A DNA stretch of 64,000 nucleotides, from the NCBI GenBank assembly GCA_031119475.1, contig JAVHXV010000007.1:124001-188000 (forward strand), in the 5' to 3' direction. Source of the DNA: Pedobacter sp. (GTDB taxonomy: Bacteria; Bacteroidota; Bacteroidia; Sphingobacteriales; Sphingobacteriaceae). The notes under the pieces are model-generated. The model searched no databases. It saw only the letters and a list, made by a program, of their open reading frames with translations, and was not told the origin of the DNA. Positions 1 to 7,816 of this stretch are shown here, in pieces (positions within the stretch are counted from its first letter, which is position 1; each line of letters starts with the position of its first letter). Made by a program: the position numbers and the translations under genes.

Positions 1-266
1 CTGCGGAGAACCTTAAAATTGTAGATCTCTCCATTGTAGGTAATCACGAGCTGGTCGTTATCGGTATGCATGGGCTGGTGGCCCGCACTGCTCAGGTCTA
101 GGATGGATAGCCTTCTACTGCCAAAGCAAAGTTTGGCTTTTTCATCAATTTCATAGCCGAAATCGTCAGGACCGCCATGCTGCATACTGTCGCACATTCG
201 GGTAATGTGATGTTGGAGTTGATCGGAAGAAAATTCTTTAGCAAAAATGCCAGCAATACGACACAT
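1..266 (-). CDS. asnB: Asparagine synthase-like glutamine amidotransferase (3' part beyond window)
   Basis: Only the first 88 codons are in the window. The protein starts MCRIAGIF, so after Met removal Cys2 becomes the N-terminal nucleophile of a class II (Ntn) glutamine amidotransferase; the following GGPDD and the YNGEIYNF segment are typical of the glutaminase domain of AsnB. The synthetase domain is not visible. It lies last in the leftward polysaccharide operon, 129 nt after the antiterminator gene. AsnB-type amidotransferases are common in exopolysaccharide loci, including exosortase-linked ones, where they are thought to amidate sugars or another acceptor, so a role other than free asparagine synthesis is quite possible (inference). 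Confidence 0.88.
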   Translation of the reverse strand, partial: MCRIAGIFAKEFSSDQLQHHITRMCDSMQHGGPDDFGYEIDEKAKLCFGSRRLSILDLSSAGHQPMHTDNDQLVITYNGEIYNFKVLR

Positions 267-395: not shown

Positions 396-902
396 TTACT
401 TCATGGGTTCTATGTAGGCCATTGAAGTGTTGATATGGATGGCATAGCCAAGGTTCTGTAACCGTAAAACTAAACTTTTTTTACTCTTTAAAGATACTAA
501 TTCTGCCATAATTCCTTTGAAAGGCCCGGCCTTGATGTGCACTTTTTCTCCTGGAGAAAGTTCATGGTCGATCAGCTCTAGATCACCTGGATTGGCCAGC
601 AGGAGCTTCAGGTCTTCAAGCTGCCTGTTGGGTATGGTTGCGATCTTTCCAGAAAAATAGATAAACCGGCTCACGCCATGGGTCATCAAGACCTGTGCAT
701 ATTCCTTAGCCGAGATGTAGACAAAAAGGTAGGATTTTAACAGTGGCTCCTCGACGATTTTTTTTCTGTCGGCCCATTGTTTCTCTTCCTTTCTTAAAGG
801 GAGATAAGCAATAATGTCCTTTTTTTTCAGCTCTAATTCCGTTTTCTTTTCCGCGCGAGAACGGGTATATATGGGATACCACTTATATGTATGATCAATC
901 AT
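396..902 (-). CDS. UpxY-type NusG-like transcription antiterminator
   Basis: 168 aa. The N-terminal half is an NGN domain (WYPIYTRSRAEKK, then the LPLRKEEKQW and YLFVY segments). The C-terminal part is a KOW domain (GEKVHIKAGPFKG around residues 118-130). This is the architecture and length of the specialised NusG paralogues (UpxY, LoaP, RfaH) that let RNA polymerase read through long polysaccharide operons. It is encoded in such an operon, after the wza-like and wzc-like genes and before asnB, whereas Bacteroides UpxY genes are usually first in their operons. The start is an ATG; no good ribosome binding site is visible, as usual in this phylum. Confidence 0.88.
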   Translation of the reverse strand: MIDHTYKWYPIYTRSRAEKKTELELKKKDIIAYLPLRKEEKQWADRKKIVEEPLLKSYLFVYISAKEYAQVLMTHGVSRFIYFSGKIATIPNRQLEDLKLLLANPGDLELIDHELSPGEKVHIKAGPFKGIMAELVSLKSKKSLVLRLQNLGYAIHINTSMAYIEPMK

Positions 903-1002: not shown

Positions 1003-3402
1003 TTATTTTTTCTTCCAAAACTCCCACCATTTTTTAGGATCCTCATCATAATAGCCTGATCCGGCATAGCCTGAGTAATCAGAATAATAATAGGTGCTAT
1101 TTCCACCGCCCCTTGAGTAATCCGTGGTATAGTAATTCGAATGTAGCGCATCGTCGCCAAATGCATTGAGTACGATGGCCAGATTGCTCAGCCCATATTC
1201 TCTAGAAAGTCGCTCCGGAATGGCGGCAGCACGGAATTGTGATTTGCCAGACCTGATTACAAAGAGGTTTACATCTGATTGGCGGATCAATGGTATCGCA
1301 TCAGATACAAGCCCTACAGGAGCTGTATCCACCAATACATAGTCATATCTAGGCGCCAATAGGTTCAACAGTTCCTTCATGTTTTCGGTGTGCAGCAACT
1401 CTGAAGGATTTGGTGGGACTGGGCCCGATGGGATAAAGTCTATATTGTGTATACTATCGTGAATCATGACTTCTTCCAATGTTTTTTGTCCCGATAGATA
1501 GGAGCTTAGGCCAATTTTGTTATCGCTTCCAAAAACCTTATGCAATTTTGATCGCCTTAAATCGGCAGCGATGAGGATTACCTTTTTGTCGATCAATGCC
1601 AATGTACCGGCCAGGTTAACGGTAACGAAAGATTTTCCTTCTCCCGAAACTTCGGAAGTGACACAAATGGTCTTGCTTTTTTTGTTTGCCGCCAAAAAGC
1701 TAAGGTTGGTCCTTACTGAACGCACTGATTCAGCGAATACCGATTTGGGCTTGGCCAAAGATAGGGCCTGCCTGCTATCCTTATCAATGTAATCCGGAAA
1801 CTTGCGGATCACCCCGATAATTGGCGTGTTGGTCAATCCTTCCACAGTTTCCTTATCATAAATATACGGGTTGAGGAAACGCACCAATAAGATCAATCCG
1901 ATACCGCAGCTGAGGCCGATCATGGCGGCGAACGAATAAATTTTGCTCGGTCCGGCAGAAATCTCATTGTGGTTAGGATAGGCCAGGTTTACAATAGACG
2001 CACCTGGAACAACCGCAGCGGCATTCATTTCGGCCTCTAACTTTTTCTGTCTCAATAGTTTGAGCACTTCATTGTTGACCGCAGTATTTGATTCGTATTG
2101 AACGTATTTTTTTTCTTTTGAAGGCAATTGGTTCAATGTCTGTTGCGCCTGGCCAAGTTGGGAATTGATCAATCCGATTGATTTCAACTGACGCTCCTTC
2201 AGGGCCCTGATGTTATTTCTGATGGCAGCCTTAGCCTCGTTGATCTGTCTGTTCAGTTCTAGGATAGGCTCTGAATTTGGATTGAATTGGGTCAATTTGC
2301 TTTCCCGTGAAAGGATCAGGCTGTTCAGCTGCGCGATTAGGCTGGCCAAAAGTCCAGATACATCACCTTCCAGTGAACTATTGATCTCGATTCGGTTCCG
2401 GCTGTTCCTTACTTGGTCTTCCAATTGGTTAATCCCGATAAGTTGCAGGTTGAGTGCAGATTTTTGGGATTCCAGACTGGCAATCTGTGTCGAGGTCATC
2501 TGGGCACTGCTCGAAAGGTCGGTAATGTTGTTCTTTTGTTTGAATTCTGCCAATTGTGTGCCTGCAGTATCTGCTTTTTGCAGCACCAGGTTCATTTGGC
2601 TTTCAATAAATTCGATTGTCTGACGGGCTGAACGCCTTTTTTGTTCCAGATCATACTTGATGTATTCCTTCATGATCTGATTGAGCACATCAGCGGCGAA
2701 TACCGGATTGGGATCGGTAATGCTGATGTTCATCACATTCGTATATTTAGCGGCCTCACCCACATCAATACGACCAGCTCTACCTATAAAATCTTCTTTC
2801 GTGTTAAATTTAAAGCTGTATTCGCCCTTGTCGGGAACCCGGCTCGTCACCTTAAAGGCCATTTTGCCCAAATTGATCACCTCGTTGTAGTGGTATTCTT
2901 TCTTCGGACCATTTTCTGAAGTGCGGATAGAAAAAGTACGGGCATTAACAGGAGTGATCTGATAAATATCGCGAGAAAAATCAACTGAATCCTGCTTGAG
3001 GATGACGATGGAGAAAGGTTTATTAGGATAGGATTCGCTGGTCTTGATCCTTCCTTTTAGATAATAGGAGATTTTGTAATCCAAATTGCCAATGGCATTC
3101 AATAAAACATCATTGCTCCTGATCACGAAGCCTTCATTCTGGATCCGGTCAGTGTAGGTGTACATCTGCGCACTCAGGTTATTTGAAGAACTGATGGCAG
3201 GATTGGCATCTTCTAGTTTTAGCGATCCGTAAGTCTGATAGATGGGCAGCGTATACAGTACATTAATTTTGGCAATGACCATGGCGATGATGACACATCC
3301 GGCAATCCAATACCATCGGCTTAAAAAAACCTTGAATATCTTGTAGAAATCTATATCCTGTCTAACAGATTTTAAATCTGGTGGGCTATCTGGCGTACTC
3401 AT
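1003..3402 (-). CDS. wzc: Polysaccharide co-polymerase / BY-type tyrosine kinase (Wzc-like)
   Basis: 799 aa inner-membrane protein controlling length and export of an extracellular polysaccharide. Wzz domain with a first membrane helix around residues 30-50, a long periplasmic coiled-coil region (about 230-450), a second helix near 485-510, then a cytoplasmic kinase. The kinase has Walker A SGEGKS near 590 and Walker B YVLVDTAP near 689. The C-terminus is a tyrosine cluster (NYYTTDY, TYYYSDYSGY, GYYDED), the usual autophosphorylation tail. Oddity: the Walker A' motif reads ILIAADLRR, with Ala where the first Asp of DxD is expected. Its ATG overlaps the stop of the upstream wza-like gene (TAATG), so the two are probably translationally coupled. 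Confidence 0.93.
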   Translation of the reverse strand: MSTPDSPPDLKSVRQDIDFYKIFKVFLSRWYWIAGCVIIAMVIAKINVLYTLPIYQTYGSLKLEDANPAISSSNNLSAQMYTYTDRIQNEGFVIRSNDVLLNAIGNLDYKISYYLKGRIKTSESYPNKPFSIVILKQDSVDFSRDIYQITPVNARTFSIRTSENGPKKEYHYNEVINLGKMAFKVTSRVPDKGEYSFKFNTKEDFIGRAGRIDVGEAAKYTNVMNISITDPNPVFAADVLNQIMKEYIKYDLEQKRRSARQTIEFIESQMNLVLQKADTAGTQLAEFKQKNNITDLSSSAQMTSTQIASLESQKSALNLQLIGINQLEDQVRNSRNRIEINSSLEGDVSGLLASLIAQLNSLILSRESKLTQFNPNSEPILELNRQINEAKAAIRNNIRALKERQLKSIGLINSQLGQAQQTLNQLPSKEKKYVQYESNTAVNNEVLKLLRQKKLEAEMNAAAVVPGASIVNLAYPNHNEISAGPSKIYSFAAMIGLSCGIGLILLVRFLNPYIYDKETVEGLTNTPIIGVIRKFPDYIDKDSRQALSLAKPKSVFAESVRSVRTNLSFLAANKKSKTICVTSEVSGEGKSFVTVNLAGTLALIDKKVILIAADLRRSKLHKVFGSDNKIGLSSYLSGQKTLEEVMIHDSIHNIDFIPSGPVPPNPSELLHTENMKELLNLLAPRYDYVLVDTAPVGLVSDAIPLIRQSDVNLFVIRSGKSQFRAAAIPERLSREYGLSNLAIVLNAFGDDALHSNYYTTDYSRGGGNSTYYYSDYSGYAGSGYYDEDPKKWWEFWKKK

Positions 3403-4220
3403 TAACGTGTTAGGGTAAAGATTAAAGCGGCTAAGTTAATTACGACAAGGAGAGGTTGTAAGATATTGTTCGAACTCTGCAATTTTTCGCCCAAGGCACT
3501 GCTTTTGGTCTGCTGTAGAACGATGATGTCATTGTTCTGCAAAATCAGTTTTTTACTGGCCAAGCTATTTACATCATTTAGGTTAACATAGATCAGTTCT
3601 GGCTTGCTCCTGTCTCCACGTATGATCTTTAATGTTTTTGGATCGGCGTTTTTGGTAATCCCTCCAGCTTCGCCAATGATATCGATGAGGTTGGTGTTGT
3701 CCCGTTCCAGTAAGAAATTGCCCTGACGGTTAAATTCTCCCAAAAGCGTAACCTTTACGTTAACAATGGTGACTTCGATGATCGGGTTTTTTAATAGTTT
3801 TTCGCCATAAACGAACTGGAGTTTAGCCGTAGCTTCTTTTCTGGTCAATCCGCCTACAGCAACCCTTCCTACTGCCGGCAAGTTAACCACGCCATCGGCA
3901 TCTACCTGATAGGTGATGGTATTAGAGCTGGTTACTGCCCCAGAATTCTGGCTGTTGGCCATAGTGGTGGTAGTTGCACCAAATTCCTGGTTCTGAAGGT
4001 TCCTGACTGCAATAAGGTCGTTTGGCTTGATCTTATAATAAAGATCGCCCAATCCTTGGTCATTTACCACATATACCTGTTTAATGGTATCGGTAACGAT
4101 ATCTGTAGAAGCATTAAAAAGTGATTTTTCGCGCCTGGCCACTTTAGAGGAACAAGCTGCACACAAGAGGGCAATGGTAAAAAGAAAAAATAATTTGTTG
4201 AGGGTCGTTATTTTTTGCAT
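3402..4220 (-). CDS. wza: Polysaccharide export lipoprotein (Wza-like, SLBB domain)
   Basis: 272 aa. Signal peptide with lipobox LLCAAC, so an outer-membrane lipoprotein is expected. A polysaccharide-export domain follows (YYKIKPNDLIAVRN), with an SLBB-type segment around residues 150-220 (VTLLGEFNRQGNF, IIGEAGGITKNADP). A hydrophobic C-terminal helix (ILQPLLVVINLAALIFTL) may cross the outer membrane as in Wza. It is the first gene of the leftward operon and is coupled to the kinase gene. A Thr/Ser/Asn-rich stretch near residue 85 is an insertion in the export domain. Confidence 0.9.
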   Translation of the reverse strand: MQKITTLNKLFFLFTIALLCAACSSKVARREKSLFNASTDIVTDTIKQVYVVNDQGLGDLYYKIKPNDLIAVRNLQNQEFGATTTTMANSQNSGAVTSSNTITYQVDADGVVNLPAVGRVAVGGLTRKEATAKLQFVYGEKLLKNPIIEVTIVNVKVTLLGEFNRQGNFLLERDNTNLIDIIGEAGGITKNADPKTLKIIRGDRSKPELIYVNLNDVNSLASKKLILQNNDIIVLQQTKSSALGEKLQSSNNILQPLLVVINLAALIFTLTR

Positions 4221-4686: not shown

Positions 4687-5073
4687 ATGAAATACCTACA
4701 ATTGATCCCCATATTGTTATTGATGCTTACCACTTTGGGCACACAGGCCAATACCGGCTGTCGCTCAAGTAGCACCACTTATACTTATATCAATCCTGAA
4801 GGCAGGCTTCGCAATGGGGTGCCATCTTATTATCATCGTTACGAGTCTGATCGCCTATTGAGTACCAGCACTTATTGCGTTGTAGATACCGATTCGCCAT
4901 GTTACATTTATGCAACACGTAGTGGGTATAGTAGCAGCCCAGGAGAACTCGTTGAGTACAATCCAGTTAATAATTGTGATATTGACAGTTACGTTGCAGT
5001 AATGGTTGTAATCTGTAGTGGCATGGGCTTTATGATGTTAAAAAGAAAAAGCCATATTTTTAGTATAGATTAA
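4687..5073 (+). CDS. Small secreted protein with exosortase-type C-terminal tag (A)
   Basis: 128 aa. The ORF track starts at a TTG at 4666; I prefer the ATG at 4687, which gives a clean signal peptide (MKYLQLIPILLLMLTTLGTQA). The mature part is Ser/Thr/Tyr-rich with several cysteines. The C-terminus has the three parts of an exosortase sorting signal: a short polar motif (CDIDSY), a hydrophobic helix (about 18 residues) and a basic end (LKRKS). It resembles the following gene in its MKYL start, N-terminal GCR and tail, so the two look like paralogues. No function is recognised; the setting suggests a surface protein linked to the polysaccharide. Confidence 0.65.
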   Translation: MKYLQLIPILLLMLTTLGTQANTGCRSSSTTYTYINPEGRLRNGVPSYYHRYESDRLLSTSTYCVVDTDSPCYIYATRSGYSSSPGELVEYNPVNNCDIDSYVAVMVVICSGMGFMMLKRKSHIFSID

Positions 5074-5298
5074 TTATTAAAGCAATCTATCCACTTAAGT
5101 GTAGAATTGGGTAGTTTTTTCCCCATAAATCATCACGTACGTGTAATCTCCTTGACATAAACTGGGAAGGATTAAATTTTTTAATTAATTTGCAATGCGT
5201 TATTCTTTTTAAGAATAAGATTTTAACTAGGATTGCATCATTTATGTATTTTTTGGCAATCAAATTGTTTAGATAAGTGTTGTAACAAATATTTAATC

Positions 5299-5808
5299 GT
5301 GAAATACCTCAAATTAACCTTCTTATTGCTGCTCACCGTAACCAGCTGCTTTGCTGATACGAGTGGGTCTGGCTGTAGGATAGACGATAAGGTGTATACA
5401 GAATATTTGGGCATGGGCTATCCTTACGGAACTTCCCAGCCTCAAAAAAGGTACTATAAGAATACAGCCTACGTACCTATCTATTATGGATATGGCTACA
5501 ATCAGCATCAGGGTTATAAATGTGGGTTCATCAACATCTATCCTGCGAGCAGCTATTGGAATGGCAGCGAGAACGTGCCGATCCCTGCCGAAAATGAAAT
5601 CAATTCTACTTCTTTCGGCGGCTGTGTCATTTCGACCACCTTGGGAGGATCACCCATCCGCGAAGGGGATTATGTGACTTTTACCTATAATCGTACCGGG
5701 GCATGCGCCTCAAGTCTCCCCTTAGATGATTATATCTGGCTGTTATTCGTGCTCGTAGGAGCTGGAGGGATATACTACATCAGGAAAAGTTTCCGTTTTT
5801 CTAGCTAG
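5299..5808 (+). CDS. Small secreted protein with exosortase-type C-terminal tag (B)
   Basis: 169 aa from a GTG at 5299; the ORF track extends to 5233 but the residues before VKYLKLTFLLLL do not fit a signal peptide. The mature region is Tyr/Gly-rich (VYTEYLGMGYPYG, PIYYGYGYNQ) with five cysteines. The C-terminus reads LPLDDY, then a hydrophobic helix, then IRKSFRFSS, which is close to the tripartite PID-CTERM type of sorting tag described for Bacteroidota exosortase substrates. It lies 225 bp after its likely paralogue and 71 bp before a glycosyltransferase. Function unknown. Confidence 0.62.
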   Translation: MKYLKLTFLLLLTVTSCFADTSGSGCRIDDKVYTEYLGMGYPYGTSQPQKRYYKNTAYVPIYYGYGYNQHQGYKCGFINIYPASSYWNGSENVPIPAENEINSTSFGGCVISTTLGGSPIREGDYVTFTYNRTGACASSLPLDDYIWLLFVLVGAGGIYYIRKSFRFSS

Positions 5809-5879: not shown

Positions 5880-6626
5880 ATGAAAATAAGTGTAATCACA
5901 GTGGTATATAATGCCGAAAATTATATCAAGGATTGTATAGAATCTGTGGTGGCACAAACTTATCCGGCAATCGAATACATTGTGGTCGATGGTGGTTCTA
6001 CTGATCGCACCATATCCATCATTGGGAATTATGTGCAAAACATTGCCCATTTTGTTTCAGAAAAGGACCAGGGCATGTACGATGCGTTGAATAAGGGAAT
6101 GGCACTGGCAACTGGCGATGTGATCGGAATCCTCAATGCCGATGATATGCTTGCTGCGCCCAACGTTATCGAAAAAATCGCCCAGGCCTTTAGTCGTACC
6201 CAGGCCGATGCCATTTATGGAAACCTCAATTATGTAAATGTCGATCCTCCGTACAAAATCATCAGAAAATGGGTCTCTACCCCGTATACACCCCGAGGAA
6301 TCGTTATGGGCTGGATGCCGGCACATCCGACGCTATATGTAAAAAGCGAAATCTTTAAAAAATTTGGAAATTATTCGCTGTTATACGGCACCGCTGCAGA
6401 CTATGAGCTAATACTGAGATTCTTGTTTAAACACAGGATTAGAGCAATGTATCTAAATGAACTGATAGTTAATATGAGGGTTGGTGGAATGAGCAACGCG
6501 AACTATAAACAGCGCTATCGTGCGTTTTTAAATGATCTTAAAGCAATCAAAACCAATGGCATACCATTTGCGTATGTAACGGTAATTTTGAAAAAGTTGA
6601 GGAAACTTCCCCAATTTTTTGCGTAG
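5880..6626 (+). CDS. Family 2 glycosyltransferase
   Basis: 248 aa cytoplasmic or membrane-associated GT-A fold enzyme. The N-terminal nucleotide-sugar site is clear: SVITVVYNAE, VVDGGSTDRT (residues 36-45) and the metal-binding NADD motif near residue 76. WMPAHPTLYVKSEIF and a tail of basic residues follow. The length and the Gln-Gly (KDQGMYDALNKG) motif match the WcaE/WcaA-like transferases of colanic-acid-type loci. It probably adds one sugar to a lipid-linked repeat unit. The donor cannot be told from sequence. Confidence 0.9.
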   Translation: MKISVITVVYNAENYIKDCIESVVAQTYPAIEYIVVDGGSTDRTISIIGNYVQNIAHFVSEKDQGMYDALNKGMALATGDVIGILNADDMLAAPNVIEKIAQAFSRTQADAIYGNLNYVNVDPPYKIIRKWVSTPYTPRGIVMGWMPAHPTLYVKSEIFKKFGNYSLLYGTAADYELILRFLFKHRIRAMYLNELIVNMRVGGMSNANYKQRYRAFLNDLKAIKTNGIPFAYVTVILKKLRKLPQFFA

Positions 6627-6655: not shown

Positions 6656-7816
6656 TTGAGTATAATTTCAGTTGTGGATTTTTTTCAAGGACATTTAATT
6701 TATTATATCGCTATAGTAGGGCTGGCATTTTTATTATCGATTGCTGGCATCCCTTCGATTATTTTCACTGCTGTTAAGTATCGATTGTTCGATAACCTGG
6801 ATGGATATCGGAAGGCCCATCGGATCCACATTTCGAGGTTGGGCGGTATTGCCATTTTCTGCAGTTTTACCATTACGACCCTGCTGTTCGCCACCATGGT
6901 AGATTATAAGCAGGCAAATTTTCTGATTACTTCTTCGATTATCCTTTTTGCTTTAGGGTTGAAAGATGATCTATATGGTGTAAATCCAAGCACTAAATTT
7001 TTGCTCCAGCTCGTCGTATCCATCATCTTGGTTGTAGCGGGCGGATTTAGGCTGACCAGTTTATACGGTGTATTTTATCTCTGGGAAGTAAATGTGCTAT
7101 GGGGAAGTGTCTTTTCGATCATCGTGATCATCTTTGTCAACAATGCCTTTAACCTCATCGATGGCGTTGATGGGCTTGCCGGTACATTGGGCGCATTGGC
7201 AATGCTCAGTTTCGGGGTGTTCTTCGCCATTGCTGATTCCTATTCCTATGCCTTTATTGCATTTGCGATGTTTGGGGCAATTGCCGGATTTTTGGTCTTT
7301 AACTATGCGCCAGCAAAAATCTTTATGGGCGATACGGGCTCGCTGATCATTGGGCTCGTTTGCGTGATTTTGGCCATCAAATTCATCGAACTCAACAAGG
7401 TAGGGTCGCTACCAAAACCCAAATTCTATTCGGCACCATCTATCGCCGTTGCCGTGCTGCTGGTACCGATTTTCGACTCGCTCAGGATTTTCATTGTCAG
7501 GATTATACATCGTAAACCGCCATTTAAAGGCGATAGAAACCATATCCATCATAGGCTGCAAAAAATTGGGCTCAATTCCAATCAGATTGTAGTCAGCCTC
7601 AGCCTATTTACTGTTTCCATGGTTTTTCTTTCCGTTAGACTGCAGCATTTGGGGAATTTTGTGCTGATTTCGCTGTTGATTGCGATCTGCATCATCATGA
7701 ACATCACCGTTACCTATGCCATAGGCAGAAAGTTTACGGCAGACTATCGATTGGTTGATGTGTTCAAAAGTAACCGGATGAATACCGTCGGCGAAAAAAA
7801 ATCACCTTCACGTTAA
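6656..7816 (+). CDS. WecA/MraY-family undecaprenyl-phosphate sugar-1-phosphate transferase
   Basis: 386 aa polytopic membrane enzyme that transfers a HexNAc-1-phosphate from UDP-sugar to undecaprenyl phosphate. Family motifs: HRIHISRLGG, the Asp pair [28 protein letters not shown] and the C-terminal RNHIHHRL, which is WecA-like rather than MraY-like. No in-frame ATG exists before the conserved region; the candidates are TTG 6656 (used here) or GTG 6674. A TACTTTTG box resembling the -7 element overlaps the TTG, so transcription from it would favour the GTG. It probably starts the lipid-linked repeat unit of the local polysaccharide. Confidence 0.88.
   Translation: MSIISVVDFFQGHLIYYIAIVGLAFLLSIAGIPSIIFTAVKYRLFDNLDGYRKAHRIHISRLGGIAIFCSFTITTLLFATMVDYKQANFLITSSIILFALGLKDDLYGVNPSTKFLLQLVVSIILVVAGGFRLTSLYGVFYLWEVNVLWGSVFSIIVIIFVNNAFNLIDGVDGLAGTLGALAMLSFGVFFAIADSYSYAFIAFAMFGAIAGFLVFNYAPAKIFMGDTGSLIIGLVCVILAIKFIELNKVGSLPKPKFYSAPSIAVAVLLVPIFDSLRIFIVRIIHRKPPFKGDRNHIHHRLQKIGLNSNQIVVSLSLFTVSMVFLSVRLQHLGNFVLISLLIAICIIMNITVTYAIGRKFTADYRLVDVFKSNRMNTVGEKKSPSR

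Follow-up and report, generated by a model that had tools for sequence, protein, structure and literature searches.

Two adjacent genes in a 64,000-nucleotide stretch of Pedobacter sp. DNA (hereafter, the window) encode small exported proteins of a cysteine-containing family, which we take, with considerable confidence in the proposal as a whole, to be cargo of the exosortase XrtY encoded on the same contig. In this mechanism, Sec would export the protein and a C-terminal helix, with arginines and lysines on the cytoplasmic side, would keep it anchored to the inner membrane; XrtY, whose catalytic residues are Cys100, Arg141 and His162/163, would then cut at or beside a C-P-[LI]-D-[DN]-Y motif, free the helix and pass the new C-terminus to an acceptor, and the folded domain would be displayed in or on the outer coat of the cell. 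We infer cleavage, transpeptidation and surface fate by analogy with the wider exosortase/archaeosortase family, and any function of the mature domains would be inferred as well.

Exosortases are known chiefly from sequence, and substrates of the Bacteroidota type are hardly described. The enzymes are thought to cleave and conjugate their substrates, the attached moiety being unidentified (PMC7468200). Loss of CrtB in Nostoc alters the adhesion of cells to polysaccharide and apparently polysaccharide composition (PMC12188702), and surface colonization by Flavobacterium requires XrtF (PMC10936215), the targets behind this mutant phenotype being unknown (PMC12188702, PMC10936215). The exosortase Y system itself is known; new here are a tag, its candidate family of substrates and the way in which tag type corresponds to enzyme subclade. 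XrtY gains a concrete candidate substrate family and a tag with defined positions, many Pedobacter proteins without Pfam or NCBIfam match are now given a family, and the sorting of two tag types with two enzyme subclades in one genus amounts to a natural experiment, so that enzyme–tag specificity and the acceptor become testable, and this in soil bacteria that are harmless.

Two Tailed Proteins in a Polysaccharide Locus

The original prediction placed two adjacent signal-peptide genes with sorting-type tails at this position, and both are present with the motifs as described (Table 1). Protein 1 begins with MKYLQL and protein 2, for which an alternative in-frame TTG start exists at 5233, with (V)KYLKL; on inspection, both signal peptides combine a basic start, a hydrophobic stretch and an Ala-rich cleavage region. 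Neither protein matches any Pfam or NCBIfam model. The AlphaFold2 model of protein 2 (pLDDT 81.8, pTM 0.67) features a beta-rich domain (residues 21–130) and a C-terminal helix (146–168), for which Foldseek found no fold match in the PDB (nothing under E = 3.8), and a profile search of PDB sequences with the family returned nothing meaningful. The neighbours that had been claimed, i.e., Wza, a Wzc-like kinase, a glycosyltransferase and an asparagine-synthase-like amidotransferase, are all found in the window.

Table 1. Coordinates of the features discussed in the text. Plain positions refer to the window.
Feature	Position	Strand	Description and evidence
Tailed small secreted protein 1	4687..5073	+	128 aa; body with cysteines between a signal peptide and an exosortase-type tail; ORF list, family profile (E=1e-29, genome search)
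Tail of protein 1	4975..5070	+	NNCDIDSY-VAVMVVICSGMGFMML-KRKSHIFSID, i.e., C-D-I-D-S-Y, hydrophobic helix, KRKSHIFSID; tail profile E=3.4e-10 (own genome)
Tailed small secreted protein 2	5299..5808	+	169 aa, GTG start; ORF list, family member
Tail of protein 2, starting at the conserved Cys136	5704..5805	+	SSLPLDDY-IWLLFVLVGAGGIYYI-RKSFRFSS, i.e., C-ASSL-P-L-D-D-Y, hydrophobic helix, RKSFRFSS; tail profile E=1.6e-12 (own genome)
Wza-like outer-membrane polysaccharide export protein	3402..4220	-	Pfam Poly_export 4.3e-14; divergent from the tailed genes
Wzc-like polysaccharide co-polymerase/tyrosine kinase	1003..3402	-	TIGR01007 8.2e-46; Wzz and AAA_31 domains
UpxY-family transcription antiterminator of polysaccharide operon	396..902	-	NF033644 145.4 bits, cut-off 100
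Asparagine-synthase-like amidotransferase, N-terminal part	1..266	-	596 aa in full; runs off the left edge into L002
GT2 glycosyltransferase	5880-6626		Downstream of the tailed genes
WecA/MraY-type protein	6656-7816		Downstream of GT2
xrtY (193-aa membrane protein)	L001:14333-14914	-	NF046083 228.9 bits, E=3e-68, cut-off 160
GT2 beside XrtY	L001:14926-15795
XYAG1 (XrtY-associated glycosyltransferase, NF046085)	L001:15823-17001		581 bits, cut-off 400
XrtY-associated Wzy-like protein (NF046084)	L001:16964-18421		659.9 bits, cut-off 420
Stand-alone XrtY, second genus	G258:C8:374044-374559		L328/L329
Stand-alone XrtY, second genus	G320:C9:435851-436363		L333/L334

By sequence, both fall into a fast-diverging family that had not been described and has no Pfam or NCBIfam model; all 61 members searched against these databases lacked a meaningful match. 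What the prediction had overlooked are the further copies of this family in the genome (seven in all, on contigs C1, C5, C7, C8 and C15) and the conserved cysteines of both proteins. Members have a signal peptide and a variable body in which three cysteines are conserved, followed by the tail motif C-P-[LI]-D-[DN]-Y, a glycine-bearing helix and terminal arginines or lysines. Cys26, Cys75, Cys109 and the tail aspartate are invariant in an alignment of 24 members, as are Cys136 and D143 in one of 61, and relatives at 20–30% overall identity retain the tail.

A profile search of 80 genomes gave strong matches in nine: two copies in Hufsiella, and four to eight per genome in the present one and in seven further genomes of the genus. 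Around the XrtY loci of seven other genomes of the genus, several proteins of the same kind adjoin wza. With wza as bait, 60 loci, almost all from Pedobacter, yielded 197 members in 54 loci, arranged in arrays of one to seven genes divergent from wza, and unlinked copies exist elsewhere too. Outside the present genome, certain copies are cut short or interrupted by in-frame stops inside the matched stretch, a pattern suggestive of gene birth and death.

A Single Exosortase, XrtY, on the Left Flank

An exosortase gene had been expected just beyond the left edge of the window. Extending the search leftward did recover one on the same contig, complete with its Cys/Arg/His catalytic residues, at 25.1 kb beyond the first base of the window and about 30 kb from the tailed genes, hence not immediately adjacent; the same-strand gene run that includes the amidotransferase continues left to it. 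The enzyme is XrtY, and its residues Cys100, Arg141, His162 and His163 are invariant in 30/30 homologues. According to the general signature TIGR04178, it is the only exosortase found in the genome sequence, which is 88.9% complete. A search of this genome with Pfam EpsH (PF09721) comes back empty, as XrtY, with 24.4 bits, stays just under the cut-off of 25.7; the reading "no exosortase in the genome" that this model alone would give is wrong, as NF046083 identifies XrtY. Both named partners of the exosortase Y system (NF046083, NF046084, NF046085) lie beside it and also exceed their cut-offs here, and no model in NCBIfam or Pfam covers the present candidate substrate family. In the literature searched, no paper relevant to XrtY or PID-CTERM turned up.

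An EpsH-like enzyme had been anticipated; the one encoded is XrtY, not XrtA/EpsH. The resemblance to the PEP-CTERM/XrtA system lies in exported proteins with a motif–helix–basic tail, many substrates per enzyme and genes close to a Wza/Wzc polysaccharide locus. The differences are a P-[LI]-D motif instead of Pro-Glu-Pro, the enzyme itself, and an amidotransferase and a kinase that both fall below the XrtA-system cut-offs (the former far below, with 348 bits vs. 817).

A Portable C-Terminal Tag

Among 172 tails, with positions numbered from P, the motif is made of C at -1 (78%), P (76%), L/I (95%), D (100%, partly owing to the expression used for the search), D/N (86%) and Y/H (79%), followed by L at +8 (62%), G at +13 (55%) and +16 (69%), and R/K at +21 (86%) and +22 (77%). 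When 194 ORFs with a C-terminal hydrophobic segment from 63 loci were taken as background (family members from wza loci set aside), the motif occurred in only two, which are the window proteins, and in 0/192 of the remainder. The tail motif of the two proteins is more than chance.

Each tail could also be an ordinary membrane anchor of the single-pass type, inherited by common descent and served by no sorting enzyme, given that it consists of a simple hydrophobic stretch flanked by positive charges that face the cytoplasm. However, nothing obliges such anchors to retain C-P-[LI]-D-[DN]-Y as their bodies drop to 20–30% identity, the pattern of P-[IL]-D, L+8 and G+16 also ends unrelated mini-proteins in other XrtY genomes, and the presence of the tail tracks XrtY, all of which makes this explanation extremely improbable.

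Those mini-proteins carry the PID-CTERM tag, a tag for which the original prediction had suggested testing the two window proteins. The label does not fit them: neither matches the PID-CTERM model (NF046080), and membership was rejected on score, the best family member of the genome reaching 22.1 bits for a cut-off of 26. A Hufsiella protein is alone in the family in attaining it (26.1 bits). In XrtY genomes, PID-CTERM proteins have about 30–40 mature residues, then a PIDGG...L..AG..YG.KK tail; those from L157–L181 (e.g., L164, L170, L178) are composed of a signal peptide, a stretch often rich in D, P and C, and the tail. Both tags have the P-[IL]-D signature, a Leu at +8 and a Gly at +16 that are conserved in the same register, and a basic end, but PID-CTERM has G-G or D-G after P-[IL]-D where the present tag has D/N-Y, lacks the preceding cysteine, and begins its basic residues at +18 instead of about +21. 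Moreover, it follows a linker of about 30–40 aa and not a cysteine domain of about 85 aa, and it occurs in XrtY genomes without the present tag. Since P-[IL]-D recurs on unrelated bodies together with the residues at +8 and +16, the tail is a portable tag, and the same common positions make the present one a divergent relative of PID-CTERM, though not a member by score. Candidate tails retrieved at E about 1e-3 from XrtY genomes of other genera were discarded as mini PID-like or unrelated membrane proteins.

In 156/172 tails, a cysteine lies at most six residues before the motif, which recalls the invariant cysteine of MYXO-CTERM (PMC11980579), likewise located directly ahead of the membrane helix. 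One could thus imagine that another C-terminal sorting protease is at work, either a myxosortase of the CPBP family with a lipidated cysteine as its target, or a rhombosortase, and that XrtY co-occurs merely through the same polysaccharide system. This cysteine, however, aligns as the fourth conserved cysteine of the body and may be engaged in a disulfide; in addition, the MYXO-CTERM motif is of the GCGC type, absent from the present tails, its enzyme is a CPBP protease whereas the candidate here is an exosortase, and the tag follows the XrtY subclade even when XrtY lies outside any polysaccharide locus. We hence consider a different protease very unlikely.

Tag Type Follows the XrtY Subclade

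XrtY is encoded in 145 of 301 genomes of the order. The family occurs in 60 genomes, 57 of which have XrtY (Fisher p = 7e-18, ignoring relatedness), while XrtY or a weaker XrtY-like match is found in 33 of the 35 PID-CTERM carriers. Either tag is present in 89/145 XrtY genomes vs. 5/156 others (p = 8e-31, a statistic that likewise ignores the relatedness of the genomes and is inflated by it). Within the genus, no XrtY genome has both tags: of 78, the present tag is found in 54 and PID-CTERM in 22, and two have neither; over the order, neither tag was detected in 56/145 XrtY genomes, nearly all of them outside the genus.

In a tree of 90 XrtYs, 40 of the 41 enzymes from family carriers form one clade (SH-aLRT 100, long branch), and mapping three labels on the tree takes 8 changes vs. 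39 with shuffled labels. The exception is Hufsiella (G001), which has family members and an XrtY that groups with PID-type enzymes, and which is intermediate between tag types. Monophyly of all XrtYs of the genus is rejected (AU p = 0.028). The tag type follows the XrtY subclade, and because the tag is almost confined to genomes with one such subclade, the family is the likely cargo of XrtY.

The genomes G258 and G320, which belong to another genus, possess the family together with an XrtY that is 52–55% identical to the Pedobacter type and 34–38% to that of their own genus. Their XrtY genes stand alone among housekeeping genes, with a methionine synthase gene and an Lrp-type regulator close by; the flanks covered contain neither wza nor a matching GT2, and the family copies are linked neither to XrtY nor to polysaccharide genes of the present type. 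The strongest argument for linking enzyme and cargo independently of the polysaccharide locus comes from these genomes. A strictly vertical history of XrtY in this second genus is disfavoured, though not formally rejected (AU p = 0.076). A clear horizontal transfer from Pedobacter was considered and dropped: a constrained tree with the Pedobacter tag carriers as one clade scored better than the quick tree, and the nested position seen in the latter is not robust, so that we only claim the same subclade for the second-genus XrtYs.

Some observations count against the pairing. XrtY and the family genes are not adjacent (median distance 33 kb), and three genomes of the genus (G201, G216, G341; L315, L314, L316, L320) have one to three family copies each and no detected XrtY; some of these copies are degraded, and they are possibly relics after loss of the enzyme. 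XrtY is split or interrupted by in-frame stops despite family arrays in Pedobacter nototheniae (G139, L206; C29:155509-156025) and P. fastidiosus (G142, L209; C30:19591-20102), which could reflect decay or sequencing error. In G048 (C6:44735-45335) and G232 (C45:15120-15773), a PID-CTERM gene adjoins a second exosortase with a weak XrtY match, which we guess to be XrtX-like.

Nature of the Acceptor

The acceptor may, with about equal likelihood, be a membrane lipid or else a glycan or glycolipid produced with the help of the partner GT2. In most of the 30 XrtY loci examined, a GT2 glycosyltransferase, which is none of the three named XrtY-system models, adjoins XrtY, and in seven of them (L011, L012, L013, L016, L022, L026, L027) it is fused to the XrtY N-terminus; this suggests a glycan-linked step. 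Judging from the two stand-alone XrtYs, the enzyme would not in every case depend on a locus-specific glycan gene close at hand, and joining to polysaccharide is weakened as a step, the family too lying away from polysaccharide loci in these two genomes.

A reading that differs from the best explanation in the acceptor step only, and the confidence in which overlaps with ours, is that XrtY processes the tails and the product is lipid-anchored or simply released, the proximity to wza reflecting co-regulation or shared surface use. Besides the two genomes having XrtY and family without wza or a GT2 of the present type near XrtY, it draws on archaeosortases, whose substrates become lipid-modified (PMC7157517, PMC11980579), the same product being proposed for ArtA. 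Against it stand the GT2 beside or fused to XrtY and the family genes adjoining wza in 54/60 wza loci; we deem it a serious possibility, somewhat short of probable.

In its most specific form, processing by XrtY would join hypervariable, probably disulfide-stabilised small domains to a glycan intermediate of the partner GT2, yielding a protein-decorated capsule that would change fast through birth and death in gene arrays, subclade and tag (PID-CTERM vs. C-P-L-D-D-Y) having been switched together. We advance this version tentatively and regard it as rather doubtful. Just past xrtY (L001:10897-12377) lie a HAD phosphatase and a gene resembling a UbiA-type decaprenyl-phosphate phosphoribosyltransferase, which scores 209 bits for a model cut-off of 234.
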